From: a virus
DNA length: 64,000 nucleotides
IMG/VR virus record: IMGVR_UViG_3300044910_000908
Coordinates: 1 to 64,000 of that record
Direction: 5' to 3' (one strand)
Part shown: positions 5,343-58,168 of the stretch, in pieces
How positions within the stretch are numbered: the first letter of the stretch is position 1
How the letters are laid out: every line of letters begins with the position of its first letter
Program-made: the position numbers and the translations under genes
The notes under the pieces: generated by a model
Seen by the model: only the letters and a program-made list of their open reading frames with translations
Told to the model about the DNA's origin: nothing
The model's database searches: none

Positions 5343-5528
5343 TTATTTCCCTTTATATCCACTTTCTCTAAACCAACCATCCCCTTTTAATTTAAAACCT
5401 GCAGAACCTATTTGTTTATCCATTACTGTTCCACAATTATTACAATTAATTTCAGGTTTTTCGTTCCATTTATGATTAGCTTCTTGAATATTTTGGCAAT
5501 TTGAACATTTATAATCATGCAACATCAT
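5343..5528 (-). CDS. FmdB-type zinc ribbon protein
   Basis: The 61-aa protein has two CxxC knuckles (KCSNC near residue 8 and NCNNC near 29) and the C-terminal block SAGFKLKGDGW that is typical of the FmdB/CxxC_CXXC_SSSS family. These small zinc ribbons are common in bacteria and phages and are thought to be regulatory or RNA/DNA associated, but no activity is established. The start overlaps the end of the nucleotidyltransferase gene. The initiator could be either of two adjacent Met codons. Confidence 0.7.
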   Translation of the reverse strand: MMLHDYKCSNCQNIQEANHKWNEKPEINCNNCGTVMDKQIGSAGFKLKGDGWFRESGYKGK

Positions 5529-6537
5529 AAGTTATATATACTCCTTTCATTTGTAATTTTAACCAATTAAAAAAATATTCTTCTAATTTTGGAGACATTT
5601 CTTGCAAAGAGGTTAGTTGTTGTTGATATTGTAATTGAGAAAATAATTCTCTAATAAACTCAGCAACAAACTCTTCAGATAATTCTCCATTTTTAATTTG
5701 TAGTAAAAACTGAGTATTATTTCTTGGAAAAGTAATTTTCTTTGTCATTAAATATTCAATACCTTGTTGAATAATTCTAACACTATGCATCATTGCTTTC
5801 CAATCAGTTCCAGATAAACTTTGTTCAGTTCTATCTCCATATTTATTTTCAAGAATTTTCAATGATTTCGAGAAATGTTTTAATGTAGTATTAAAAGCAA
5901 ATGTTTTATTTCCAATAGCTAATGCATCTTGTTCATCATTTGCTCGAGTTGCTGGAATAGTTGTAATGAAAATTGGTTCATTATTATTCCTTGAATACTT
6001 GGTGATATTTGCTAATACAAAATCTTGTATAGTTAATTTATTTAAATTCTGAGTTGATGCTAATTCTGAAATGTCATTATACAATTTTCTAATAGCATCA
6101 AGACGTTCTCCTTTCAAAGAATATTTTAATGCTTGAGAATAAGCATAACCAATAATACATTCAATGTTTTTATTAGCAAATTCAGAAACTAAGCCATTAA
6201 AAAAATGTTTCAATTTCATTTCATATTCTTGATTAATATATTCTACATTAGTATTAGATATATAAGCAAATACAACTTCTAATGCATAAGTTTGATTTTG
6301 TAAAAAATGTTTTGCAAATACTTGAATTGGAATAAATTCTTCTTCTATTTCTCCAGCTTTAGTGCTTTCATTTGGTTTTGCATCTCGTTCTTTATAAATT
6401 TCTGCTTTTTTACCAATCAGCATATCACCATAATCTGGCAAATAAATTGTTTTTAAATCAATATCAGAAGTTGGAGTATTGGTTCCGTATAACATAGAAC
6501 CATGTTTAATTGTTAATAATTTAATTGGTTTTTTCAT
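5515..6537 (-). CDS. nucleotidyltransferase-superfamily protein
   Basis: The 340-aa protein begins with a polymerase-beta-type nucleotidyltransferase motif, HGSMLYGTNTPTSDIDLK (residues about 12-29), in which GS and the two aspartates of SDID are the expected nucleotide and metal ligands. The rest is helical. Similar proteins annotated as predicted nucleotidyltransferases (YcgL/RlaP-like) are frequent in large phages, but their substrates are not known. It overlaps the upstream 122-aa gene and the downstream FmdB-type gene, so the three are co-transcribed. Confidence 0.7.
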   Translation of the reverse strand: MKKPIKLLTIKHGSMLYGTNTPTSDIDLKTIYLPDYGDMLIGKKAEIYKERDAKPNESTKAGEIEEEFIPIQVFAKHFLQNQTYALEVVFAYISNTNVEYINQEYEMKLKHFFNGLVSEFANKNIECIIGYAYSQALKYSLKGERLDAIRKLYNDISELASTQNLNKLTIQDFVLANITKYSRNNNEPIFITTIPATRANDEQDALAIGNKTFAFNTTLKHFSKSLKILENKYGDRTEQSLSGTDWKAMMHSVRIIQQGIEYLMTKKITFPRNNTQFLLQIKNGELSEEFVAEFIRELFSQLQYQQQLTSLQEMSPKLEEYFFNWLKLQMKGVYITYDVA

Positions 6538-7624: not shown

Positions 7625-8197
7625 TTATAATATACCTAATTCTATTAAATGCAATTGCAATACTATAACATGCGCATAAGCAATAGCATGACTTCTTTTA
7701 AAACTAAATTCATCTGTTTGTTGATAAAGTATTGATTTTATTACTTCTTTTTGCTTTAAATATAATGGAACTAAATTATATTTTCCAGGTCTGATTAATG
7801 CAATAGCATCTGCGATATCTTCAATGGAATTAGGTTTAATTTTTAATAATAAATCATAATGTTTAGATAATTGAAATAATTTTGAAACATGATTTTTATC
7901 AAGTAATAAATTCCAATTAGGTTCTAATTTCAAAAGTTCAGTTATTTCTTCACGAGATTGGAAGTAATCATAAATTGAAAGATGTAAAAAATCTACTTTA
8001 AAATAACCTAATTCTTCAGCTTGTTCATAAGGAATTGCTGATAATTTTGTTAAGGGGTCTATAGGTATATTTTGAGGATAATGCCCACATGGGTGAGGAG
8101 ATAACTTTTCATCTTTTAAAAGACATGCTCGCGTCCAAGGAAATATATCTTGAGGATTAAATTTAGTTGGAGTATCGATATCAACATCAAAATTCAT
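7625..8197 (-). CDS. DNA polymerase III alpha (DnaE)-like palm fragment, downstream part
   Basis: The 190-aa protein resembles bacterial DnaE from the catalytic motif onward. It opens with MNFDVDIDTP, matching the PDFDVDF block that carries two catalytic aspartates. It then has EELGYFKVDFLHLS, matching the GLVKFDFLGL block with the third aspartate, then VSKLFQLS (GVFQLES) and ADAIALIRPGKYN (IALVALYRPGP). The segment between the first two blocks is much shorter than in DnaE. The preceding part of the palm (GRGSS) is in the gene at 8953-9453, with two small genes inserted between. Family assignment rests on ordered motif matches; activity is uncertain. Confidence 0.65.
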   Translation of the reverse strand: MNFDVDIDTPTKFNPQDIFPWTRACLLKDEKLSPHPCGHYPQNIPIDPLTKLSAIPYEQAEELGYFKVDFLHLSIYDYFQSREEITELLKLEPNWNLLLDKNHVSKLFQLSKHYDLLLKIKPNSIEDIADAIALIRPGKYNLVPLYLKQKEVIKSILYQQTDEFSFKRSHAIAYAHVIVLQLHLIELGIL

Positions 8198-8772
8198 AAT
8201 TTAGCAAAGTGTCTATAACCATTAGTAATTAATTCTTCTTGAAATTCTAACACATCTTTTTCACCTTGTAAATGTTTATTTACTAAACTATGTAATGTAA
8301 AATCTTTATTAGAGGCATAAGTTAAAACATCTTTTAATTTTGGTAATAATACTAATCCTAATATATTAGATACGAATTCATCAACATATATCTTTTCAAG
8401 ATTATTTAATGAACAATTATGAATATTAGTAAAACATAATTTATCGCATCTTACAATATACATAGTCTTTAATACATTATTAGAATAACCGTAAAAACTT
8501 TCTAAAAAATAATTATTAGTTAATCGTAATTCTAAACTATTATAAACTATTCCATTAAAATTTAAAAATTCAGTATCAAAAATATCCAATTCATACAATT
8601 TATTTTCACAGTAAAGAACTTCAATATTAGATAATAAACCTGTGAATTTTTGTTCTTCAACTTGTTCTCTAATTGGCAAATAATCAAGTGAATGTCCACC
8701 TGATAATTCAGCAATAAATTTACCATTAATTCTTCTTAAATTGAGTCTAGGTAAAATATCTTTCTTAGTCAT
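8194..8772 (-). CDS. degenerate leucine-rich-repeat family protein, 192 aa
   Basis: The protein is rich in Leu, Asn and Tyr in an irregular LRR-like pattern and ends with a conserved module: SNILGLVLLPKLKDV, then NKHL, then DVLEFQEELITNGYRHFAKL. Nearly the same ending is found in the proteins at 42227-42667 and 42667-43095, so this is a paralogous family. I recall similar proteins with this C-terminal block in multiple copies in other large phages; their role is unknown. This copy lies between the two halves of a DnaE-like gene and overlaps the downstream half by 4 bp. Confidence 0.65.
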   Translation of the reverse strand: MTKKDILPRLNLRRINGKFIAELSGGHSLDYLPIREQVEEQKFTGLLSNIEVLYCENKLYELDIFDTEFLNFNGIVYNSLELRLTNNYFLESFYGYSNNVLKTMYIVRCDKLCFTNIHNCSLNNLEKIYVDEFVSNILGLVLLPKLKDVLTYASNKDFTLHSLVNKHLQGEKDVLEFQEELITNGYRHFAKL

Positions 8773-8948
8773 GTTGATAATTTTTCTAATATTTTATTTG
8801 CAATTAATTCTGCTAATTTTTCTAAATCTTTTTCTCGTTGTTCAGCATTTAATTGATTACGTTTAATAGCTACACAAATTGGACAACTTGTATTTTGAGA
8901 TGCCCAATATTCATGTTCTTCATTATCGTTACATAATTGTTTTTTCAT
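8769..8948 (-). CDS. small zinc-knuckle peptide, 59 aa
   Basis: I place the start at ATG 8948, which gives MKKQLCNDNEEHEYW. A longer hydrophobic extension is open upstream but overlaps the DnaE-like gene. The peptide has HEYW...SCPICVA, a possible Cys/His metal site, followed by a charged helix. It overlaps the LRR-like gene by 4 bp. No strong ribosome binding site is seen. Function unknown. Confidence 0.5.
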   Translation of the reverse strand: MKKQLCNDNEEHEYWASQNTSCPICVAIKRNQLNAEQREKDLEKLAELIANKILEKLST

Positions 8949-8952
8949 AATA

Positions 8953-9453
8953 TTAATGGAAAAATTCTGTATAAGGAATATTAAATTTAATACAATCAAT
9001 ATTATGAATACCAATCAAATATAACAAATAACAAGCAACAGAAGAACCTCTTCCAATTCCCCATATTTGTTTTTTTGATTTAAACATATCAACAATATAA
9101 ATCATACATTTAAAATGATTTTGTAAATTATTATCTATGACTATTTGTAATTCTTCTGATATTCTATTACTATTATCTTTAGTAATATATTCACTAAAAT
9201 AATCAATTAAATCAATATCTAAATATTTCTTTGGTATATTCCAATTAAAATCAAAATGAATATCTTCTTCTTTATATTGTTTTATTATATCATCAGATAA
9301 CATATTAAATAATTCAATATCTTCAGTTAATTCTGAAGTTAAAATATTATTAGGATGAATACCAGATAATAATAAAGAATTAATTATTTCAGGTTCTACT
9401 AATGATTGACCATTATAAAGTAATATTCTATCTTCTAATACTGAATACTTCAT
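8953..9453 (-). CDS. DNA polymerase III alpha (DnaE)-like palm fragment, upstream part
   Basis: The last 35 residues of this 166-aa protein match the start of the DnaE palm: IWGIGRGSSVACYLLYLIG, then DCIKFNIPYTEFFH, corresponding to VGPGRGSAAGS...YALGITDLDPL...LFERFLN. The upstream 130 residues resemble the DnaE region before the palm only in being helical (WNIPKKYLDID). The reading stops just where DnaE would reach the catalytic PDFDVDF block, which is found at the start of the gene at 7625-8197. The start follows AATTAGGTTT and overlaps the zinc-finger gene by 4 bp. Confidence 0.65.
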   Translation of the reverse strand: MKYSVLEDRILLYNGQSLVEPEIINSLLLSGIHPNNILTSELTEDIELFNMLSDDIIKQYKEEDIHFDFNWNIPKKYLDIDLIDYFSEYITKDNSNRISEELQIVIDNNLQNHFKCMIYIVDMFKSKKQIWGIGRGSSVACYLLYLIGIHNIDCIKFNIPYTEFFH

Positions 9454-10187
9454 AAACCTAATTCTTTTATAATTGGAATTAATTCATGACGTATCTTATT
9501 ATGTTTTTCTAAATGTCCGACCCAAAAATTAATATTGATAACTCCCATTAATAAACTCATATCATTGTTATCAACAGTTGTTAGAAAAGATTTAAATTTA
9601 TCTGAATGTAATAATAACCACGGTGATAAAATACGTAATCTAATTAATTCAAATACTCGTTTAAATCCTAAATGAATGAAAATATCATTAAACGCAATAT
9701 TTTCATCTTCACAAATTTTTTCTAATTTATCAATACTTTTCATTACAAGTTCATATGGGTCAGCATCTTTATCACAAAATTCTAAATAGATACTATAACA
9801 CTGATCTCTATGCCACATTGTTGGAGAAATATCTCTTAATGTCATTAAATCAATAAACAATTTGGGTTTATCTATATTCAATCTTACTAAATTATTTGCC
9901 AATTTAATAAATGAAAGATAAAATTTAGAGCCAGTAAATGTATCAATTGTTGGTGCTTTTAATTTCTTGCTTTTCATCCATAAACAATATAATGAATAAG
10001 CAGATTGACCAATAGGAGTTTTGATTTCTTCAAATCTAAGCTTTTCTCTACAAGTATGTTTAAGAAAAGCTTTTTCAAGAACAAATTGTTTTTTACAATA
10101 ATTACAATGCCAACCATGTTTTTGAACAGAAGACGTTTTTCTTCGGTGTTGGGCATTTTGTTTCATTGCATTTGCATCAATTACCAT
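9450..10187 (-). CDS. C2H2-like zinc finger protein in the replication cluster
   Basis: The 245-aa protein has a basic N-terminus and one zinc finger, WHCNYCKKQFVLEKAFLKH-TC (residues about 26-46), followed by an all-helical body. It sits directly downstream of gp62 with a 1-bp gap, in the position of replication or repair accessory genes. T4 has no clear equivalent. A role like the helicase loader gp59 is conceivable from size, helical content and context, but I see no convincing sequence match. Confidence 0.6.
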   Translation of the reverse strand: MVIDANAMKQNAQHRRKTSSVQKHGWHCNYCKKQFVLEKAFLKHTCREKLRFEEIKTPIGQSAYSLYCLWMKSKKLKAPTIDTFTGSKFYLSFIKLANNLVRLNIDKPKLFIDLMTLRDISPTMWHRDQCYSIYLEFCDKDADPYELVMKSIDKLEKICEDENIAFNDIFIHLGFKRVFELIRLRILSPWLLLHSDKFKSFLTTVDNNDMSLLMGVININFWVGHLEKHNKIRHELIPIIKELGL

Positions 10188-10188
10188 A

Positions 10189-10665
10189 TCACTTTATCTC
10201 TTTTTTGAGTTTAGTTAATTCTTCTTTAGTCCATCCAAGTTCTTCAGCATATTGTAATATAATTTCATTTGAAAGTAAATGATTATTTGATATTGCTTCT
10301 CGTTCAGAATAATCATAATATTCCATAATTACTTGTATTCTTAATCGATTATCTTTTTTTGCTTTTGGCATTGGTATCCATTTAAATCGACTTCGACTAC
10401 CATCTCCAACACAAGCTAATAATTTAACTAAAATTTCAGGATGTCTTTTACTAAATGACCATATAAAAGGATTAACCAATTCATTATTTAAAATGATTTG
10501 CATATCATTATTAGTGCCATACATCCATTGTGAAACAACATAAGCAGATACACTATTTCTCTGTTCTTCGTTTAATGTTTCCCATATATGCAAATCTCCT
10601 GAATTCAATTGAGTTAGAAATTTAAAAATATCTAATTTAAATTCTTTTGATTTAGTTGTTGCCAT
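10189..10665 (-). CDS. 62: clamp loader small subunit (gp62-like)
   Basis: The 158-aa protein lies immediately after the gp44-type gene without a gap, as in T4. Its layout fits diverged gp62: a start resembling FDFLxxLN, a central NPFIWSFSKRHPE block, then FKWIPMPK and a C-terminal VIMEYYDYSEREAISNNHLL block with LGW near the end. Gp62 binds the gp44 tetramer and helps load the sliding clamp at primer ends. Assignment relies on gene order plus weak similarity. The start follows GAGAGAATATAA. Confidence 0.75.
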   Translation of the reverse strand: MATTKSKEFKLDIFKFLTQLNSGDLHIWETLNEEQRNSVSAYVVSQWMYGTNNDMQIILNNELVNPFIWSFSKRHPEILVKLLACVGDGSRSRFKWIPMPKAKKDNRLRIQVIMEYYDYSEREAISNNHLLSNEIILQYAEELGWTKEELTKLKKEIK

Positions 10666-11595
10666 TTATATTCTCTCAAGATTAATAAATAACGCAGCTA
10701 AATTTATGTGGGGATGGGCAACTAATGAATGCTTATATAAGTGGTCCGCAATAACAACAATTGCTGATTGTTCTTTAGATAAATCTTTTTTGAATTGTGG
10801 AACTTTATTAATATTAGAATAAAGGAAATTAAAAACTTCATCATATTCATCTGGAGCAATTTGTTCGCAAACAATTTTACGAGCAGATGAGAAATCACCA
10901 GCTTCCAAATAATCTAATAATTTAAGTTTATAATCATCAGTTGAAACAGTTTCCCCATCTGGCCTAATCAATTTACCATTTTGAGAGTATTGCTGTAATA
11001 ATTGAACAACTTTACGAATATCAGGATATGCAGATTTAACAATTTTTTCAAATAAATCAACATCATCAATTTCTACATTCTCTTTTTCTAATATTTCAGC
11101 AGCATAAATTAGAACTTGGTCAAAATTTGGTGCTAAAAATTGATATTCCTGAAATCTTGATTTTAATGATGGGATAATTTTATTAAGATAATTAGTAGTT
11201 GTAATAAAACGGCATGTATCAGAATTATCCTCAATTGTCATTCTTAAACTTTCTTGAGCAGCAGGAGATAATCGATTGAACTCTTCTAATTGAACTATTT
11301 TAAAATTACCCAATGGCATTGTACTTGCAAATCGTTCAATACGTTCTCGCATTGCATCAATACCATTTTCAGAAGATGCATTTATCCGAATAACATCAGC
11401 ATCATGAACACCTAATTCAAAAACTAATGCTTTACTTAAAGTAGTTTTTCCTGTTCCTTGTAATCCTGCAAAAATTAAATTTGGAGGATTACCTTCTTTT
11501 ACAATTTTCTTAAAAAGTTTTTTTACATCATCTGATTTAAAAATAATGTCATCTATTTTTTTTGGCCGATATTTTTCTACCCATAATTGAGTCAT
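10666..11595 (-). CDS. 44: clamp loader ATPase (gp44/RFC small subunit-like)
   Basis: The 309-aa AAA+ protein begins WVEKYRPKKIDDI, the RFC box, and has a Walker A GLQGTGKTT (near residue 45), a Walker B QLEEFNRLSP, sensor 1 TTTNY and the SRC-like KSRFQEY arginine-finger motif. It is the motor that opens and loads the gp45 clamp together with gp62. Length matches T4 gp44 (319 aa). It has its own promoter at 11625-11653 and should be co-transcribed with gp62 and the zinc-finger gene. Confidence 0.93.
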   Translation of the reverse strand: MTQLWVEKYRPKKIDDIIFKSDDVKKLFKKIVKEGNPPNLIFAGLQGTGKTTLSKALVFELGVHDADVIRINASSENGIDAMRERIERFASTMPLGNFKIVQLEEFNRLSPAAQESLRMTIEDNSDTCRFITTTNYLNKIIPSLKSRFQEYQFLAPNFDQVLIYAAEILEKENVEIDDVDLFEKIVKSAYPDIRKVVQLLQQYSQNGKLIRPDGETVSTDDYKLKLLDYLEAGDFSSARKIVCEQIAPDEYDEVFNFLYSNINKVPQFKKDLSKEQSAIVVIADHLYKHSLVAHPHINLAALFINLERI

Positions 11596-12694: not shown

Positions 12695-13354
12695 TTAATA
12701 CGGATTATAATATTCGTCAGATACAAAAATAATTTTGCTTTCGTCTGTTTTCCACAAATATTCGCCATAAGGTCCATTACATCGAATTTTGTGAGTCCAT
12801 TGCTGATTTTCTACTAATGCATATTTTGCATTACGAATCTCATCGCAAACTTCAGGACCTACTGCTAATATCTCAACCCATTGATCTTTTACATTTTCAT
12901 CATAATCATCTTTGTCAGAAATAATAATGCCACCTTTTGAAATTGGTTGGAATGTGCTTTTTGTTAAATTTGCACAAAATTTAAAAATAACAGCATCAAG
13001 AATTGGATATAATTTTTCACCGTCATCTGTTACAATGAATTGTCGATTAGGAATACTATCTTCAGAAAAAATTCCAAGAATATCTTCTTCTTTCATTAAC
13101 AGAACTTTTCCTTTATTCTCTAATTCAACTTCTTGTCCTGCATATCTACCAAATAATACTTTTTCACCAACATTAATGGAAATTGGTTTTAAACTATTAT
13201 TCTTATCATTAGCTTTACCCTTTCCTATTGCTAATATAACACCAATAGAAGGAGCTTCTTTTGTAATATCTGATGGGATAAAAATACCACCTTCAGATAC
13301 AACTTCTTTTTCATTTCGTTTAACAACAACTTTATCATATAAAGGCTTAATCAT
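12695..13354 (-). CDS. GroES/gp31-like co-chaperonin with two GroES-type domains
   Basis: The 219-aa protein starts at ATG 13354, behind GGAGAAGAAGAAA. An upstream extension is open but hydrophobic and lies inside the Thg1 gene, so I reject it. Residues 1-100 are a GroES fold: MIKPLYDKVVVKR, GGIFIPSDIT, APSIGVILAIGKG, VGEKVLFGRYAG and LLMKEEDILGIF. Residues 110-219 repeat the plan (AVIFKF, KGGIIISDKDDY, WVEILAVGPEV, SKIIFVSDE). Normal GroES is about 97 aa, so this is a tandem. It may cap host GroEL for phage protein folding, as gp31 does in T4. Confidence 0.85.
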   Translation of the reverse strand: MIKPLYDKVVVKRNEKEVVSEGGIFIPSDITKEAPSIGVILAIGKGKANDKNNSLKPISINVGEKVLFGRYAGQEVELENKGKVLLMKEEDILGIFSEDSIPNRQFIVTDDGEKLYPILDAVIFKFCANLTKSTFQPISKGGIIISDKDDYDENVKDQWVEILAVGPEVCDEIRNAKYALVENQQWTHKIRCNGPYGEYLWKTDESKIIFVSDEYYNPY

Positions 13355-14138
13355 TTTCTTCTTCTCCAACAATATTAAAATAAACAGGAACATTATTATA
13401 AAACAAAACATCAACTTTATTAACAATTTTTGTTAATTGATCTATATCTTTTCTGACAATTATTCTGCGACTAATAGGACCTTTAGGATGATGTTCTTCA
13501 GGAATATTTTTTAATTCTTCTTCAGTTAAATATTTTATAACATCTTGTTTAACAAAAATAGAACCTCTTTTTAAATAGTCAGGTAATTTATTCCAATAAT
13601 ATCCAATCGTTTCTAACTTTGCAATTCTTTGTTTAGTATTTAATCCATCTAATTCTGATTGCTTAAAATGAGCATGAGCAACCATATTTACGCTATTTTT
13701 TGCAGCATCCATTTCTCTCCACATTATATTTTCAGTAATAATTTCTAAATTGGGAACTTGCCAAATTCTACAATCAAAAGTTCCCAATTTATCATAATTA
13801 GAACTAAAATAAGCTGAAGCATATCCCGCTAATGAAGAACACAATTTTTGTACTCTTCCATCAAACATATCTAAACTTTCCCAAGCTAAAGTAATTTCAT
13901 CAGATTGAACATAAACAATATCAGCATTAAATTCGTGCAATAAAGATTTTGCAGTATCTTCCATCAATTTAATAAATTCAATATCAAATGGCTTTTCTAA
14001 ATCTCTTGTTAATGTATGAAATGCTCTACCATCTAATCTTGCAATAACAGGTATCCAAGGAATTAAATTACTTTCTGATAAACCTTCAAATTTTTTATGT
14101 TTATCACCCAAATCTTTAAAATCTAAACTATTTTTCAT
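13347..14138 (-). CDS. Thg1-like tRNA guanylyltransferase (3'-5' polymerase family)
   Basis: The 263-aa protein has the Thg1 signature IARLDGRAFHTLTRDLEKPF (residues about 32-51) and VYVQSDEITLAW (near 77-88), with the metal-binding aspartates of the palm. Members add G to the 5' end of tRNA-His or, in bacterial and phage-type TLPs, repair 5'-truncated tRNAs by templated 3'-5' addition. The latter is more likely here but is inference. It has its own promoter (14170-14197) and overlaps the co-chaperonin gene by 8 bp. Confidence 0.88.
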   Translation of the reverse strand: MKNSLDFKDLGDKHKKFEGLSESNLIPWIPVIARLDGRAFHTLTRDLEKPFDIEFIKLMEDTAKSLLHEFNADIVYVQSDEITLAWESLDMFDGRVQKLCSSLAGYASAYFSSNYDKLGTFDCRIWQVPNLEIITENIMWREMDAAKNSVNMVAHAHFKQSELDGLNTKQRIAKLETIGYYWNKLPDYLKRGSIFVKQDVIKYLTEEELKNIPEEHHPKGPISRRIIVRKDIDQLTKIVNKVDVLFYNNVPVYFNIVGEEEND

Positions 14139-14200: not shown

Positions 14201-14533
14201 CTATTTTTTAATTGTTTGTTTAGCAACACTCTTAGCAAATGATAACAAATCATCACCTGATGGAGCAGACTCAACAGCACTTTTAGTAATAACAGCACCA
14301 TCATCATCAGTAAATACATCAGCTTTCACTGGAGCAACAGCAGTATTAATAACCTTTAAAGCATTTTGAATAGGCTGCTTAACCTCTTTAGGTTTTAAAC
14401 CTTCTTTTGTATCAATAAACTTTCTACGACTATCAACTCCAATTGCAACTGGTTTAGAAGCTAATTGCTGCTTAATAGCCAATATATCAAAATCAACTCG
14501 CTCTCCACGAGCACTAGTTCCCATTTTCCCCAT
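14201..14533 (-). CDS. conserved phage hypothetical protein, 110 aa
   Basis: The start follows AAGGGAGAAATTTA. The N-terminal half (ARGERVDFDILAIKQQL, then VDSRRKFIDTKEG) resembles a short protein I recall from other T4-related phages with a basic GxRVDF opening, but I cannot name its function. The C-terminal half is low complexity with acidic patches. It sits between the RNase H and Thg1 genes. Confidence 0.55.
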   Translation of the reverse strand: MGKMGTSARGERVDFDILAIKQQLASKPVAIGVDSRRKFIDTKEGLKPKEVKQPIQNALKVINTAVAPVKADVFTDDDGAVITKSAVESAPSGDDLLSFAKSVAKQTIKK

Positions 14534-18212: not shown

Positions 18213-19418
18213 TTAAAATTGAACAATAGAATTTACTCTAACTGTTTGAGGTGTAGGAACCTCTAATCCCATTGCTTCAAATACACCTAATAATTTTGCA
18301 TTAATCAATTTCTCCTCAGATACTTTCATATCTATTTCAAAATTCTCTAAAAACCATTGAGGAAATTTTGTTAAATCCGCAGGAAATGCAAGTGTTCTAA
18401 AACCAAATTCATTTTCCTTTAATTCAAATACTTTAACTTTATCACCATTCATTATTTTTGGATGAATACTATCTTTATATTCATCAATTAAAACATTATA
18501 ATTTACTGATGCTCTAATATGTCCAGGAACTGTCATCTTTCCTTTTCCATTCTTAGATTTCATTGGTTTACCATCTAATTCTGCAAAATAAGCTGAAGTA
18601 TATAATTCCAAATTATTAGCTGATTTAGATATTCCTAACAAAATTACTTCTGATGGTGAAATTTCTCCACTTGTAAATAATTCTTTTCGTTGTTCATTAA
18701 TATAAGTAGATACGTCAGGATAAGACATACCATCTAATATCCTATCAACAACATTCTTTAAAAACTTCTGAATGACTTTAGGTGTATCAGACTTCTTAAT
18801 TTCAGAACCCATAGCTTTCATTTTATTAGTTCTAAAACCTTCTAAATCTACAACTTTTGCCATATATTTTTTACGAGCTTGAAATAATGCTCGTTCAGCA
18901 ACAATCTCTCTTCCACAAACAATTAATTTATCATATCCTGGTTGACAACAAAATGCATCAATCATGAATTGAGGAAAACTTTCATTTATACCATCAGCAA
19001 CAGCATCAGCAATTAATACAGCTTCTTCAATATCATTTGCACCAGTAGCAAAATAGGCCGAATCGGTGTCAGAATAGATAATTGTATGATTGTTAGCATT
19101 GTAAATATTTTGTACAACTTTTTTATCTAAATTAAAACTCTTAACTAAATTGGCTTCTTCTCCTGATATTAAATATGCAGCAGTATTTGCCATATGAGAA
19201 GTAATAGCTCTACCTGTAAAAGTAACAGAAGCCCCAATCATCTCATCAACGCCCCATCGAAAACCTTTTGCTAGTAAAGCTCCATAAGCTGAATTTAAAG
19301 AAATCTTTTTTGTAAGTTGTAATAAATCATAATGTTCTACTTGATGTTTAGCTTCTTTAATTTGTTCAGCAATTTCAGGTGTATAAAATTTTCCATCTAT
19401 TTCAATTAATTTTGACAT
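18213..19418 (-). CDS. 43: DNA polymerase gp43, C-terminal part (split gene)
   Basis: This 401-aa protein covers only the end of a family B polymerase. It has motif B, KKISLNSAYGALLAKGF (near residue 36), motif C, TIIYSDTDSAYFA (near 113), the KKYMAKVVD block and the thumb. The exonuclease domain and palm motif A are missing and are not elsewhere in the window. It has its own promoter (19446-19474), start and ribosome binding site, so the gene is truly split rather than truncated by the window. Split gp43 is known in some Aeromonas T4-type phages. The C-terminus VNSIVQF is the likely clamp-binding peptide. Confidence 0.9.
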   Translation of the reverse strand: MSKLIEIDGKFYTPEIAEQIKEAKHQVEHYDLLQLTKKISLNSAYGALLAKGFRWGVDEMIGASVTFTGRAITSHMANTAAYLISGEEANLVKSFNLDKKVVQNIYNANNHTIIYSDTDSAYFATGANDIEEAVLIADAVADGINESFPQFMIDAFCCQPGYDKLIVCGREIVAERALFQARKKYMAKVVDLEGFRTNKMKAMGSEIKKSDTPKVIQKFLKNVVDRILDGMSYPDVSTYINEQRKELFTSGEISPSEVILLGISKSANNLELYTSAYFAELDGKPMKSKNGKGKMTVPGHIRASVNYNVLIDEYKDSIHPKIMNGDKVKVFELKENEFGFRTLAFPADLTKFPQWFLENFEIDMKVSEEKLINAKLLGVFEAMGLEVPTPQTVRVNSIVQF

Positions 19419-22717: not shown

Positions 22718-23257
22718 TTAAGATAATAATCCATTAAGAGAAACACAACCATTTGGCAATACATAAGTATTTGATTGTGTTACTATTTCCCATGTTTGGT
22801 GCAAAGGTTTTATTACTTCTATTTTATCAACTTTTAAATAACTTTGTATAGTTTGAATAATTTCTTCTTGATTATTTCTGATATGAGTTAAATGAACTAT
22901 TTCATCACCTTCAGAAAGATTTCTAATTTTAATGAAATCATCTTCTCTTGAGGGATAATGTGCAAGTAGTTTATGGTCTCCAGTGAAACCATATTCGGAA
23001 TCGTCTTCAAATACAACTTTATAGATAGTAGTTAAACCATTATAAAAAACATGTTCAACTAATTCATCACCATCTTCTCCAATTACATAAATTGGTTGAG
23101 GTAATTCATAAATGCGTTTAGATAATTCTGAAAATTGACAATTTTGAAATTCAAAATTTAATTCTCTAAATAATTGAACAATACTAATAGCTCTACTATC
23201 AGCCAAATTTAATTTATTACAACAATCATATAAAGCACTTGTTCCACTAGCTTGCAT
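22718..23257 (-). CDS. Hint (hedgehog/intein)-like protein
   Basis: The 179-aa protein has intein-type blocks without an extein or endonuclease: YKVVFEDDSEYGFTGDHKLLA (near 86-106, block B with the TxxH-like GDH), IRNLSEGDEIVH (near 118) and a C-terminal WEIVTQSNTYVLPNGC-VSLN (block F/G). The N-terminal region has CC at residues 12-13 that could be the block A nucleophile. It follows nrdB by 16 bp. It could be a domesticated or split intein-derived protein, or a Hint-type autoprocessing protein. Splicing is uncertain because the final residues do not fit HN-[CST]. Confidence 0.6.
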   Translation of the reverse strand: MQASGTSALYDCCNKLNLADSRAISIVQLFRELNFEFQNCQFSELSKRIYELPQPIYVIGEDGDELVEHVFYNGLTTIYKVVFEDDSEYGFTGDHKLLAHYPSREDDFIKIRNLSEGDEIVHLTHIRNNQEEIIQTIQSYLKVDKIEVIKPLHQTWEIVTQSNTYVLPNGCVSLNGLLS

Positions 23258-35793: not shown

Positions 35794-36258
35794 TTATCTC
35801 CTATAAAATTCAACAACTGTAACATCTTCATTATTAAAAATCTTTTCAATCATTGGTTTAACAGTTCCATCCCAATCACCACCAGCTAATCCACATCCAA
35901 TTTGAGGAAATCCAAATCTTAATCCAGAAAATTCCCTTCTAACATTTGATAATGCTTTATGCATTGCATCATAATTAACAACAACTTCATTATATCTTAA
36001 AGCTGTTCTTTCTTGAATATAAGCATTAACAATAATCAATTTAGCATCAATAACAACATAAGTAAATTGGCCATTTAATTTTTCTTCAACTGACAATTTA
36101 GAATTCAAATCCATTAAATGGGCTTTTGGCCATTTAGTTTTGATTTGTTTTGCAATACCAGCACCCATTATTTTATTAGTATTGCAACCATGAACTAAAA
36201 CATCAATTTCTTCGTTTTCAGCTAAGGTAATTAAATTACCTGTTATATACTTAATCAT
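35794..36258 (-). CDS. macro domain protein (ADP-ribose binding/processing)
   Basis: The 154-aa protein is a single macro domain of the ALC1/Poa1p-like type: YITGNLITLAENEEIDVLVHG-type start (GNLI near 7, VLVHGCN near 20), MGAGIAKQIKTKWP (near 31), RFGFPQIGCGLAGGDW (near 113). These domains bind ADP-ribose and can hydrolyse ADP-ribose-1''-phosphate or remove ADP-ribose from proteins or DNA. With Sir2, NADAR and an ART-like protein in the same window, a role in reversing or sensing ADP-ribosylation is plausible. It starts within the upstream zinc-ribbon gene's stop. Confidence 0.88.
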   Translation of the reverse strand: MIKYITGNLITLAENEEIDVLVHGCNTNKIMGAGIAKQIKTKWPKAHLMDLNSKLSVEEKLNGQFTYVVIDAKLIIVNAYIQERTALRYNEVVVNYDAMHKALSNVRREFSGLRFGFPQIGCGLAGGDWDGTVKPMIEKIFNNEDVTVVEFYRR

Positions 36259-42226: not shown

Positions 42227-42667
42227 TTAAAATTTTGCAAAATGTCTATATTTTTTTGTGATGAGTTCTTCTTGACATTCTAGAACATCACGTTCTAATG
42301 ATAAATGATTATCAACAATTGTGAATGGCTCTACAATTCCGGTGCATCTAGAATATTTTATTTTTTCACTTACTATTATTTTATTTAATTTTTTAACTAA
42401 TAATAAACCTAATATATTACTTCTAATTGCAGTATTAATGGTAATACAATCATCAATAACTTTAAAGTATTCTTTTCCAATACCTTGTAATGTTGTAATA
42501 TTTGCATGTATAAAATTAACATATCCATGACTTTCTTGAATATTAGATAATTTGTTTATATGCCCAATATAAATGTCATCTAAAAAGGAAATACCCTCAA
42601 GTATTTCAGGTAAAGTTTTAAAATCAACTTTTCTACCATGAATAAAATGATGACGCGGACTTATCAT
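42227..42667 (-). CDS. degenerate LRR-family protein, 146 aa (paralogue)
   Basis: The ending SNILGLLLVKKLNKI ... DVLECQEELITKKYRHFAKF matches the proteins at 8194-8772 and 42667-43095. The N-terminal half has irregular repeats around hydrophobic residues (LPEILEGISFLDDIYIGHI). Head-to-tail placement with its neighbour suggests local duplication. Function unknown. Confidence 0.65.
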   Translation of the reverse strand: MISPRHHFIHGRKVDFKTLPEILEGISFLDDIYIGHINKLSNIQESHGYVNFIHANITTLQGIGKEYFKVIDDCITINTAIRSNILGLLLVKKLNKIIVSEKIKYSRCTGIVEPFTIVDNHLSLERDVLECQEELITKKYRHFAKF

Positions 42668-43095
42668 TATCTTGCTTGATGTTTATAACCATTAATAATT
42701 AATTCTTCCTGACATTCTAATATATCAAAAGTTGTTTGATATTTTTTAAGAATATTCATGGGTTTTTCATCAATAGGATTAGGTTTCCAAAATGAACGAG
42801 ATATAAAATAAAAGCCATGTAAATATCTAACTTTTAGAATACTTAACATATGAGATTTAATATTATATGGCAATTCTAAAGTTCCATGAATAGTTTTAAA
42901 ATATCTAGAACCCATACCTTCAAGTGTTTGTAAATTTTGCAATCTAGATAAATCAACATTACCACGAACTATTTTTGTTTTAAGACCTTTAAGATGAGTA
43001 ATGATTTGATTTCTTTCACCGAAATCAAATACTAATCCTTCATGAATTTCCTCAGGAAGATTTTTTAATTCAGATAATTTAGTTACGTAAATCAT
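42667..43095 (-). CDS. degenerate LRR-family protein, 142 aa (paralogue)
   Basis: Two to three LRR-like units are visible (LKNLPEEIHEGLVFDFG; RLQNLQTLEGMGSRYFKTI), then the family ending KSHMLSILKVRYLHG ... FDILECQEELIINGYKHQAR. It overlaps the 146-aa paralogue by one base and the 55-aa membrane gene by 4 bp. Function unknown. Confidence 0.65.
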   Translation of the reverse strand: MIYVTKLSELKNLPEEIHEGLVFDFGERNQIITHLKGLKTKIVRGNVDLSRLQNLQTLEGMGSRYFKTIHGTLELPYNIKSHMLSILKVRYLHGFYFISRSFWKPNPIDEKPMNILKKYQTTFDILECQEELIINGYKHQAR

Positions 43096-53315: not shown

Positions 53316-54125
53316 TTAAATTTTTTCAATTTTTTCAATAGATTGTGGTCTTATATTGGTTAGTGTATATATTCCATTATCATAATTAGGGTCTCTAAAG
53401 AACCTCTGAACTTGTGGTAAATCTTTTACTGAAATTGTAATTAAGAACCACTCAACTTCTTTCCCTGTCCTAATGTCAATATCTTGTTTATTTTTATTTG
53501 CTGCATATTTTAATTGTTTAATTAAAATATTTCTAACAACTTCTTCTGAAATAGCTAAATATATACGTTCAGGATGATTTGCTAATTTAGAATGTGTTTT
53601 AGGAACTAATCCAATTGTTCTAATTTTTTCAATATATTTGGAATTAGTAATATGATATAAAAATTCAGGAGCAAATTTCATATCTAATTCTATATCATAT
53701 TTTGCTTCAAGATTGATCTCAATGTACTTAACTTTATCAAATTCTTTCAATGAATTCAATATTTTTTCAACAGAAATTGTTTTTCCTAATTGAAAAATTT
53801 CTCTTTTATTTTTATCATAAGCTTCATATAAAGAAATAAACCAACCATAATAGTTAGCTAATTTAAAAATTCCAGAAATTAAATCTTCATCTATCTTATT
53901 ACTTTCGCATATAATACAAATTGTATTAGCTTCTCCAAATTTAGAATATTGCTTTTTGAATTTAAGAAAATCCCATTTTCGTAATAATCCAGAAATTGTA
54001 GAACTAATTGGATATGTTCTTATTAAACTTTCATTTAATAAAAGCTCCTCCTTATAAAATTCTTTAAATTTTTTAAAGTGTTTAATACCTTCATCTTCAT
54101 TAATAGTTATAGTTGGCCATTCCAT
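53316..54125 (-). CDS. ADP-ribosyltransferase-like / Tpt1-type fold protein
   Basis: The C-terminal 110 residues of this 269-aa protein (EFLYHITNSKYIEKIRTIGLV, HPERIYLAIS, VEWFLITISVKDL, FFRDPNYDNGIYT) follow the H-Y pattern of ART-superfamily enzymes. The nearest are Tpt1/KptA RNA 2'-phosphotransferases and phage relatives, where YHIT supplies the NAD-binding His. The N-terminal 150 residues are unknown. It could transfer ADP-ribose or remove a 2'-phosphate; the target is unknown. The final acidic catalytic residue is not certain. It lies next to the ThyA-like gene. Confidence 0.55.
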   Translation of the reverse strand: MEWPTITINEDEGIKHFKKFKEFYKEELLLNESLIRTYPISSTISGLLRKWDFLKFKKQYSKFGEANTICIICESNKIDEDLISGIFKLANYYGWFISLYEAYDKNKREIFQLGKTISVEKILNSLKEFDKVKYIEINLEAKYDIELDMKFAPEFLYHITNSKYIEKIRTIGLVPKTHSKLANHPERIYLAISEEVVRNILIKQLKYAANKNKQDIDIRTGKEVEWFLITISVKDLPQVQRFFRDPNYDNGIYTLTNIRPQSIEKIEKI

Positions 54126-56353: not shown

Positions 56354-57088
56354 TTACTTAGAAAACTTAGCCATTATTTGAGCTACTGCAATAGGAACAG
56401 TTGCTGAACCTCTTCCTCTAAAACAAGTATAAAGTTCTTCAAATTTATATCTTAAATCAGTATATGCTGGAGTTGGATTACATTCATAAATTTTAGCCAT
56501 ATTTGAAGCAGCATTTCTAACTAAATTAGCGGCTGGCCATACTTGACCACTAGTCCCAACTACTAACATAACTAATGAATTATCAGCTGCAGTTTCTGCT
56601 AATTTAAAATCTTGCTCATTTAAATCTTCTCCAAACCAAACCACATTAACTCGCATATTAGCACCACAACAAGAACATATAGGAACTTCTGCTAATTCCC
56701 AATATTCTGCTTCATTAGTAGTATATTCGCAAGTTTGACATCTTAATGCTTTTAAATCTCCATGTAATTCAATTACATTTTTTGAACCTGCTTGTTGATG
56801 AAGTCCATCAATATTTTGGGTAATTAAAAGAAAATCATGTCCTTGTTTTTCTGCCCATTCTTCTAATTTTACTAATTCTTCATGGGCTCTATTAGGTTTA
56901 ATTGTTTTAAGATTATCATATCTTTGTTTATAAAAATCCCAAACTAATTGTGGATTTTTTTGAAATCCTCTTGGAGAAGCAACATCTTCCACTCTATGAT
57001 TTTCCCATAAACCATTATTATCCCTAAACGTTGGAACACCACTTTCTGCTGATACTCCTGCACCAGTAAATACTGTTATATATGACAT
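56354..57088 (-). CDS. Sir2-family NAD-dependent protein deacylase (CobB-like)
   Basis: The 244-aa protein is a complete sirtuin: VFTGAGVSAESGVPTFRDNNG (near 6), LITQNIDGLHQQAG (near 88), catalytic His in VIELHGDLKALRC (near 105), a Cys4 zinc site (RCQTCEYT; ICSCCGANM), VVWFGEDL and VGTSGQVWPAANL. It removes acyl groups from lysines using NAD+, producing O-acetyl-ADP-ribose. CobB-type proteins act as enzymes rather than as the NAD-depleting defence Sir2s. In a phage it could reprogram host proteins or NAD. Start after AAGGAGTTATAAGAAAA. Confidence 0.9.
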   Translation of the reverse strand: MSYITVFTGAGVSAESGVPTFRDNNGLWENHRVEDVASPRGFQKNPQLVWDFYKQRYDNLKTIKPNRAHEELVKLEEWAEKQGHDFLLITQNIDGLHQQAGSKNVIELHGDLKALRCQTCEYTTNEAEYWELAEVPICSCCGANMRVNVVWFGEDLNEQDFKLAETAADNSLVMLVVGTSGQVWPAANLVRNAASNMAKIYECNPTPAYTDLRYKFEELYTCFRGRGSATVPIAVAQIMAKFSK

Positions 57089-57586: not shown

Positions 57587-58168
57587 TTATTTTTTTCTAA
57601 AATCTAAAATTTGTATCTCTTTTTCTAACACTAAACAATTTTCCATTATTGGAGCATTGACAACTTTAAAGTTTTCCGAATTATCATCTTCCTGAATAAC
57701 TTGTCTAACAACCATATGTAAATGACCTAATGCATTAAACCCAACTAATTCACTCCCATCTTCATTTGGTTTGGCGCCCCAAAAATCATCCTTCTTTGAA
57801 ATCTCCACAATATCTCTTGTTCCAGTTTCAATTAATGCATCACGATATTTTTTATGCTGAGCAGCTTTGAGACGTAAACACCAATACATAATTTGAACTC
57901 TATCGTCATCAAAACCTCTATACGTATGCGTTTTCCGATACTTTTTGGATACCATCTTAGCACCCATACCACTTTTCTGTTCTAATATCTCTTGCTGAAT
58001 TTCAGGATGAAACACAAATCTCATCATTTGATAAAGATTTTCTGTTGATGGAACTAAAATGTCTTTAGACAATCTTATCGGAAATCCTCCAGTCATATTA
58101 CCGAATTCACCCCATTTATCTTTTGCTCTAGAAAAAGCACATACCTCTTCAACTTTATAAGTATTCAT
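57587..58168 (-). CDS. NADAR-family (YbiA/DUF1768) protein
   Basis: The 193-aa protein matches NADAR: CAFSRAKDKWGEFGNMTGGF (near 11, cf. FxxxxxxxGxxSNxxxxP), STENLYQMMRFVFHPEIQQEI-type helix (near 46), MGAKMVSKKYR (near 68), QIMYWCLRLKAAQH (near 92) and VEISKKDDFWGAKP (near 122). NADAR enzymes cleave N-glycosidic bonds, and some are reported to remove ADP-ribose from guanine bases. With the macro-domain, Sir2 and DUF4326 genes it forms an ADP-ribose toolkit. It has its own promoter at 58205-58232. Confidence 0.83.
   Translation of the reverse strand: MNTYKVEEVCAFSRAKDKWGEFGNMTGGFPIRLSKDILVPSTENLYQMMRFVFHPEIQQEILEQKSGMGAKMVSKKYRKTHTYRGFDDDRVQIMYWCLRLKAAQHKKYRDALIETGTRDIVEISKKDDFWGAKPNEDGSELVGFNALGHLHMVVRQVIQEDDNSENFKVVNAPIMENCLVLEKEIQILDFRKK

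Follow-up and report, generated by a model that had tools for sequence, protein, structure and literature searches.

The window analysed here, a stretch of 64,000 nucleotides of viral DNA (positions 1 to 64,000 of IMG/VR record IMGVR_UViG_3300044910_000908), contains two short genes whose products, read in order, recall the palm and fingers of bacterial DNA polymerase III alpha (Pol III alpha, DnaE). An earlier note made from the letters alone had described them as a palm "interrupted by unrelated genes" and had left it undecided whether the pair is an active mini-polymerase, a regulator or a remnant. The locus raises two questions, namely whether one gene was broken up here or the two were separate long before, and what such small proteins could do beside a family B DNA polymerase. 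With its 81,067 bases, the source record is possibly incomplete. The features on which the argument turns are listed below, with the two polymerase genes called the N-half and the C-half.

7625–8197, minus strand: C-half of a split minimal Pol III alpha, 190 aa; starts MNFDVDID and contains FKVDFLHL, FQLS and IALIRPG
8194–8772, minus strand: lineage-specific protein of 192 aa, encoded between the two halves; two weak paralogues lie at 42227–43095
8769–8948, minus strand: small CxxC peptide between the halves, an open reading frame with a CPIC pair; no relatives among the fetched loci
8953–9453, minus strand: N-half, the 166-aa counterpart of the C-half; ends GRGSS...YTEFFH; palm segment with the WGxGRGSS nucleotide-binding motif
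9450–10187, minus strand: C2HC zinc-finger protein (phrog_11058), 245 aa; candidate third component
10189–10665, minus strand: gp62-like small clamp-loader subunit (phrog_225, 6.6e-6; phrog_11758, 1.3e-16)
10666–11595, minus strand: gp44-like AAA+ clamp-loader subunit (phrog_168, 3.8e-77; PF21328 Gp44_lid, 1.9e-10)
14201–14533, minus strand: member of the gene family that directly follows the N-half in relatives (51 matches in the fetched loci, just downstream of the N-half)
18213–19418, minus strand: C-terminal part of a gp43-like family B DNA polymerase (PF00136, 3e-16, profile positions 138–376; match at 18594–19361)

Two genes matching parts of a Pol III alpha core

Both polymerase open reading frames lie on the minus strand at the positions, and with the end, start and motifs, that the earlier note had given, and profile searches agree with its reading of a shortened and split Pol III alpha palm and fingers. 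Above the curated Pfam cut-offs, the N-half matched the palm model for Pol III alpha (PF07733, 7e-11), and the C-half the finger model (PF17657, 4.6e-7). In PHROGs v4 they matched phrog_11127 (2.4e-32) and phrog_11778 (1.6e-59), respectively, which are separate small families labelled "DNA polymerase" and 171 and 197 positions long; since PHROGs keeps each half as a family of its own, the halves were already known as separate proteins. The N-half aligns with residues 285–392 of E. coli alpha, and against solved structures its profile does not extend past residue 392 in E. coli alpha or 454 in Taq alpha, while the C-half profile sets in with the DxD pair itself, at Taq 462. The break therefore falls just before the catalytic Asp pair, where the earlier note had put it, and as placed by these alignments the split point is inside the core nucleotidyltransferase fold. 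D4, D6 and D69 of the C-half align with Taq D463, D465 and D618, and K67-V-D69 comes to lie on Taq K616-M-D618 when residues are counted off the printed alignment. The C-half contains the catalytic D4/D6 (plus D8), D69, a strand with H35/G38 and the base of the fingers (FQL, RPG, FKRSHAIAYA); the palm segment of the N-half is preceded by an extension of its own of ~85 aa.

AlphaFold models of the C-half and N-half reached pLDDT values of 95.6 and 94.7, and a Foldseek comparison with the PDB ranked Pol III alpha first for both halves. For the C-half, Pol III alpha accounted for all significant matches; the palm segment of the N-half could be laid on M. tuberculosis DnaE1 (5lew) with an rmsd of 1.3 Å over 71 columns, at weak E-values of 0.06–0.1. 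What has been lost is equally evident. The Asp pair is separated from the third Asp by ~60 residues in the C-half as against ~150 in Taq, from which it follows that the thumb has been removed, and in the model this stretch is made up of strands, loops and one short helix only. The C-half terminates after the SHAxAY helix, without full fingers, clamp-binding, OB and C-terminal domains. A [RK][RK]AMGK finger motif, present in a full-length phage DnaE, was found in none of 84 C-halves; the equivalent segment in Taq touches the incoming triphosphate. The PHP domain (PF02811) was absent from this record (G000) and from 20 other records, with a control detected in 14 of 14.

The residues that were retained are strictly conserved. 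Alignment of the C-halves showed D4, D6, D8, H35, G38, K67, D69, R136, P137 and H170 in all 84 sequences, and alignment of the N-halves showed R97, E101 and H150 as well as G132, G134, R135, G136 and S137 (WGIGRGSS in the N-half of the window) in all 87, with the qualification that K67, D69, R136, P137 and GRGSS were partly selected by the patterns of the viral scans, which does not apply to the remaining invariant residues. In phage records found by tblastn, D69 and K67 are also kept, and phage records likewise retain GxGRGS. Among informative close pairs, dN/dS amounted to 0.02–0.12 for the C-half and 0.07–0.23 for the N-half.

An old split and a local change of gene order

The two halves are widespread. 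With tblastn, the C-half was detected in 93 phage records, and the N-half query matched 132, some of which are full-length DnaE. Scans of IMG/VR with alignments confirmed at least 582 relatives of the C-half and at least 588 of the N-half, the best 80 of each being retained; a scan with the single N-half sequence returned nothing, whereas the alignment-based scan did match. Among 33 whole records, 29 have the C-half and 31 the N-half, and all six complete phages considered (XacN1, 121Q, RAS14, SCTP-2, XaC1 and Slicko01) have both together with a family B polymerase. Both halves occur in 17 of the 19 records of at least 200 kb, the exceptions being one with the C-half at the contig's very end and a 202-kb record with the N-half only. 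Alishewanella phage Slicko01 (L014), with N-half, C-half and family B polymerase, is a complete circular genome of 141 kb and thus below 200 kb, which shows that jumbo phages are not the only carriers of the split mini Pol III. Fourteen GTDB contigs (L173–L186) also carry the C-half, all with relatives of the zinc-finger gene nearby and most with gp62 as well; their labels as metagenome-assembled genomes (MAGs) range over Bacteroidales, Rickettsiales, Pelagibacter and even archaea. A cellular origin of the mini pair was considered for them and rejected in view of the phage neighbours around the C-half, and they are probably phage contigs mis-binned into MAGs.

No fused or unsplit mini gene was found among ~100 C-half and ~106 N-half loci, where the sole open reading frame matching both profiles is the full-length DnaE of phage MA9V-3. 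Two candidates did not stand up: the joined-query tblastn match in Xanthomonas phage XbC2 merely ran beyond the stop codon of the N-half, and Pbunavirus PB1, taken at one point for a second split case, has its DnaE as one gene of 1035 aa. The description of the palm as interrupted by unrelated genes could not be upheld, as the split is of long standing and occurs without exception in the relatives examined, whose halves are 3.7–15 kb or far more apart. Homologues in which the two genes are unlinked, which the earlier note would have held against its own reading, do occur in the literal sense, but what they reveal instead is a stable system of two genes.

Relatives with both genes on one locus have the order N-half, the 14201–14533 family, a GroES-like gene, a membrane protein gene, gp44, gp62, the zinc-finger gene and C-half. 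In 28 other contigs the halves are separated by 3.7–14.9 kb; 121Q has them ~31 kb apart, and in SCTP-2 as well as in some contigs the distance exceeds 100 kb. In the window the gap is only 756 nt, and the N-half is located between the zinc-finger gene and the C-half, an order that, among the loci examined, occurs only here; start and stop codons overlap between the zinc-finger gene and the N-half, between the CxxC and 192-aa genes and between the 192-aa gene and the C-half. The usual site of the N-half, upstream of 14533, is vacant. In the tree of C-halves the window stands beside contig L018 (SH-aLRT 87), and this sister contig (L018/L096) has the usual gene order. Together with the vacant site, this favours reading the closeness of the halves as derived, the N-half gene having moved, and not as a trace of an undivided gene. 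To the extent that the account of such genes in PMC7824862 is available, the position of the N-half beside the C-half was not found in print. A partial correlation of N–C distance beyond that explained by gp44 and gp62 was weak (r 0.29, p 0.0025) and not specific to this pair, as N–zinc-finger and C–zinc-finger distances behaved alike.

One might still suppose that the small CxxC gene and the 192-aa gene were inserted recently into what had been a single gene; both were found in no fetched relative, and the latter has paralogues in the same genome. However, two separate genes with the same break point are present in all relatives, mostly at a much greater distance, the sister contig keeps the usual order, and the usual N-half site upstream of the 14201–14533 gene is vacant in the window. 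We regard such an insertion as hardly credible. As to the intervening genes themselves, the 192-aa protein had no significant Pfam or PHROG match and no relatives among the fetched loci; the term "LRR-like" used for it earlier finds no counterpart in any Pfam LRR or PHROG match. It belongs to a small paralogous family on the minus strand (42227–42667, 42667–43095 and 8194–8772) with a common C-terminal tail, ...QEELI..GY[RK]H..., and no known domain. That the 8769–8948 peptide binds zinc is a guess.

The zinc-finger gene, the clamp loader and the replicase

A more regular neighbour of the C-half is the zinc-finger gene. It lies within 3 kb upstream of the C-half in 72 of 93 loci, often overlapping the C-half start, and even in 121Q and SCTP-2, where the N-half is far off, it remains ~0.4–4 kb from the C-half. 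C28, C31, H44 and C46 are invariant in 44 relatives of the protein. It was detected in 27 of the 29 records with a C-half and in none of the four without, although those four may be fragments. As for the two C-half records that lack a match, one has the C-half at the very end of the contig and the other is Slicko01, in which a protein with a similar Cys/His pattern occupies the zinc-finger slot, undetected by the profile. A homology search with the zinc-finger protein yielded generic C2H2 finger matches only. The link between this gene and the C-half is absent from the available text of PMC7824862 and was not found in print.

The clamp loader of T4 type noted earlier beside the two genes is confirmed by the phrog_168 match of the gp44-like protein and the phrog_225 match of the gp62-like protein, whose gene is placed between gp44 and the zinc-finger gene in relatives. 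The gp43-like family B polymerase is presumed to be the main replicase. The window contains its C-terminal part, and the beginning of gp43 must be located elsewhere, which makes the family B replicase appear split here as well; G007, G009 and Slicko01 likewise show family B polymerase matches in separate open reading frames. A separate DnaQ-type exonuclease was present in 13 of 21 records tested and is located ~3–6 kb from the C-half in XacN1, RAS14 and 121Q, consistent with a Pol III-like partner; the 81 kb of this record yielded no such gene.

Several other genes of the window deserve mention in their own right, all on the minus strand. An RlaP-type nucleotidyltransferase (5515–6537; phrog_388, 1.7e-50) has relatives that are frequently encoded immediately downstream of a C-half, at ~3 kb or less in most loci having one. 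A tRNA-His guanylyltransferase (Thg1, 3e-27) is encoded at 13347–14138 within the otherwise conserved cluster and occurs in just two fetched relatives, at other positions. Adjoining the ribonucleotide reductase genes, the open reading frame at 22718–23257 resembles an intein-splicing domain (PF14890, 5.4e-4, below the cut-off) and is possibly a free-standing or degraded intein. Genes of Sir2 (56354–57088, 9e-49), NADAR (57587–58168, 3e-19) and Macro-like type (35794–36258, 9e-4) make up a set for NAD+/ADP-ribose handling, perhaps in counter-defence. The 269-aa protein at 53316–54125 has no Pfam match, and its tail, YHITNSKYIEKIRTIGLVPK...HPERIYL, recalls, by eye only, RNA 2′-phosphotransferase/ADP-ribosyltransferase proteins.

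Possible function and comparison with known systems

Considering the homology, the exact split point, the invariant catalytic residues, the purifying selection, the co-occurrence and the synteny, we think that the N-half and C-half probably make up a minimal core of the C-family (Pol III alpha type), acting as a two-chain nucleotidyltransferase that assists the family B replicase. The N-half would provide the GRGSS helix which holds the nucleotide triphosphate, and the C-half would contribute the three aspartates for metal binding together with the base of the fingers. By binding to each other, the two chains would jointly rebuild one Pol-beta-type active site that is absent from either alone. 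Nucleotide transfer catalysed in this way, without thumb, PHP and clamp-binding domains, would probably make short DNA stretches, with contact to DNA or the clamp supplied by the zinc-finger protein and by the gp44/gp62 clamp machinery encoded next to it. The biological role might thus be that of a helper to the family B replicase, at short gaps, in primer extension, on the lagging strand or in repair. Against this explanation stands the fact that a second polymerase is in principle dispensable where a family B replicase is present, and the loss of the thumb and of the [RK][RK]AMGK motif, as judged from the sequences, would also speak against an active polymerase. The literature searched contained no biochemistry for any member of the split mini Pol III.

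The same losses, extending to the PHP and beta-binding parts, could point to a non-catalytic helper whose halves, no longer polymerising, would bind nucleotide or DNA and serve as a regulator or tether of the family B replicase or the clamp loader; the location of the genes in the clamp-loader cluster and the presence of a family B polymerase would suit this as well. Yet a purely structural role does not require that the three metal-binding aspartates and GRGSS be invariant, and we therefore hold such a helper to be unlikely. Rather more improbable is an active nucleotidyltransferase that does not work as a primer-template DNA polymerase and serves end modification, primer synthesis or transfer to another molecule. 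It would agree with the retention of the core nucleotidyltransferase residues and the loss of the parts that grip DNA, and the C2HC zinc-finger partner might then bind particular DNA ends, but the finger elements FQL, RPG and F-K-SHAxAYA have been kept and the genes cluster with the clamp loader. A decaying remnant of a captured host dnaE, finally, would be small and lack domains just as these proteins do. Here the low dN/dS values of both halves, an active site invariant across very divergent phages and hundreds of copies leave next to no room for decay, since invariant catalytic residues under purifying selection argue against a remnant. Of the three possibilities named in the earlier note, the remnant is thus nearly excluded by conservation, and a predicted active mini-polymerase is favoured over a regulator.

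Within the favoured reading of a two-chain core, we tentatively consider a polymerase of three proteins, with a chance of being correct that is well below even, in which the phrog_11058 protein joins the N-half and C-half and replaces the lost thumb, finger or clamp contacts. This would place a second, C-family polymerase with a two-chain active site beside the family B replicase at one phage fork. If active, the pair would rank among the smallest C-family polymerase cores, with its active site shared by two gene products, and would be a ready test of the minimal Pol III needed for catalysis; the conserved zinc-finger partner offers a concrete, testable third component. The window, as a natural case with both halves in one gene cluster, is convenient for cloning and co-expression.

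Bacterial Pol III alpha (T. aquaticus 2hpi/3e0d/4iqj, E. coli 2hnh/5fku, M. tuberculosis 5lew/7pu7) has the palm GRGS, DxD, third Asp and lower fingers motifs in common with the split pair, but is one chain of 900–1200 aa with PHP, thumb, full fingers, beta-binding, OB and C-terminal domains, all of which the pair lacks. Full-length DnaE is of the C-family in phages too (1185 aa in Chryseobacterium phage MA9V-3, 1035 aa in Pseudomonas phage PB1), but is unsplit and full-sized. The families phrog_11127 and phrog_11778 are exactly the two proteins discussed here, for which PHROGs states no mechanism or pairing. The closest system is that of the "group 2.2" jumbo phages, which are large and T4-like and in which the split minimal Pol III was first described by Iyer et al. 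(Viruses 2021, 13:63, PMC7824862). According to the available text of that study, the two proteins together restore a single minimal catalytic core of Pol III in phages that also have a family B replicase, and such minimal forms are proposed to resemble an ancestral state, a proposal for which the split mini Pol III, if active, would also be a test. The two proteins are the same, as is the split between an NTP-binding and a Mg2+/template-binding part, and those phages likewise have a family B polymerase and an RFC-like clamp loader. Genomes of that group exceed 200 kb, and the 81 kb of the present record may be only part of a genome. Their halves are distant and not, as here, 756 nt apart in one tight cluster; this difference being derived, membership of the group is kept. 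Measured against the available part of that account, the split mini Pol III of the window is in kind already described, and the new points are the derived order of its genes and the zinc-finger gene that regularly accompanies the C-half.
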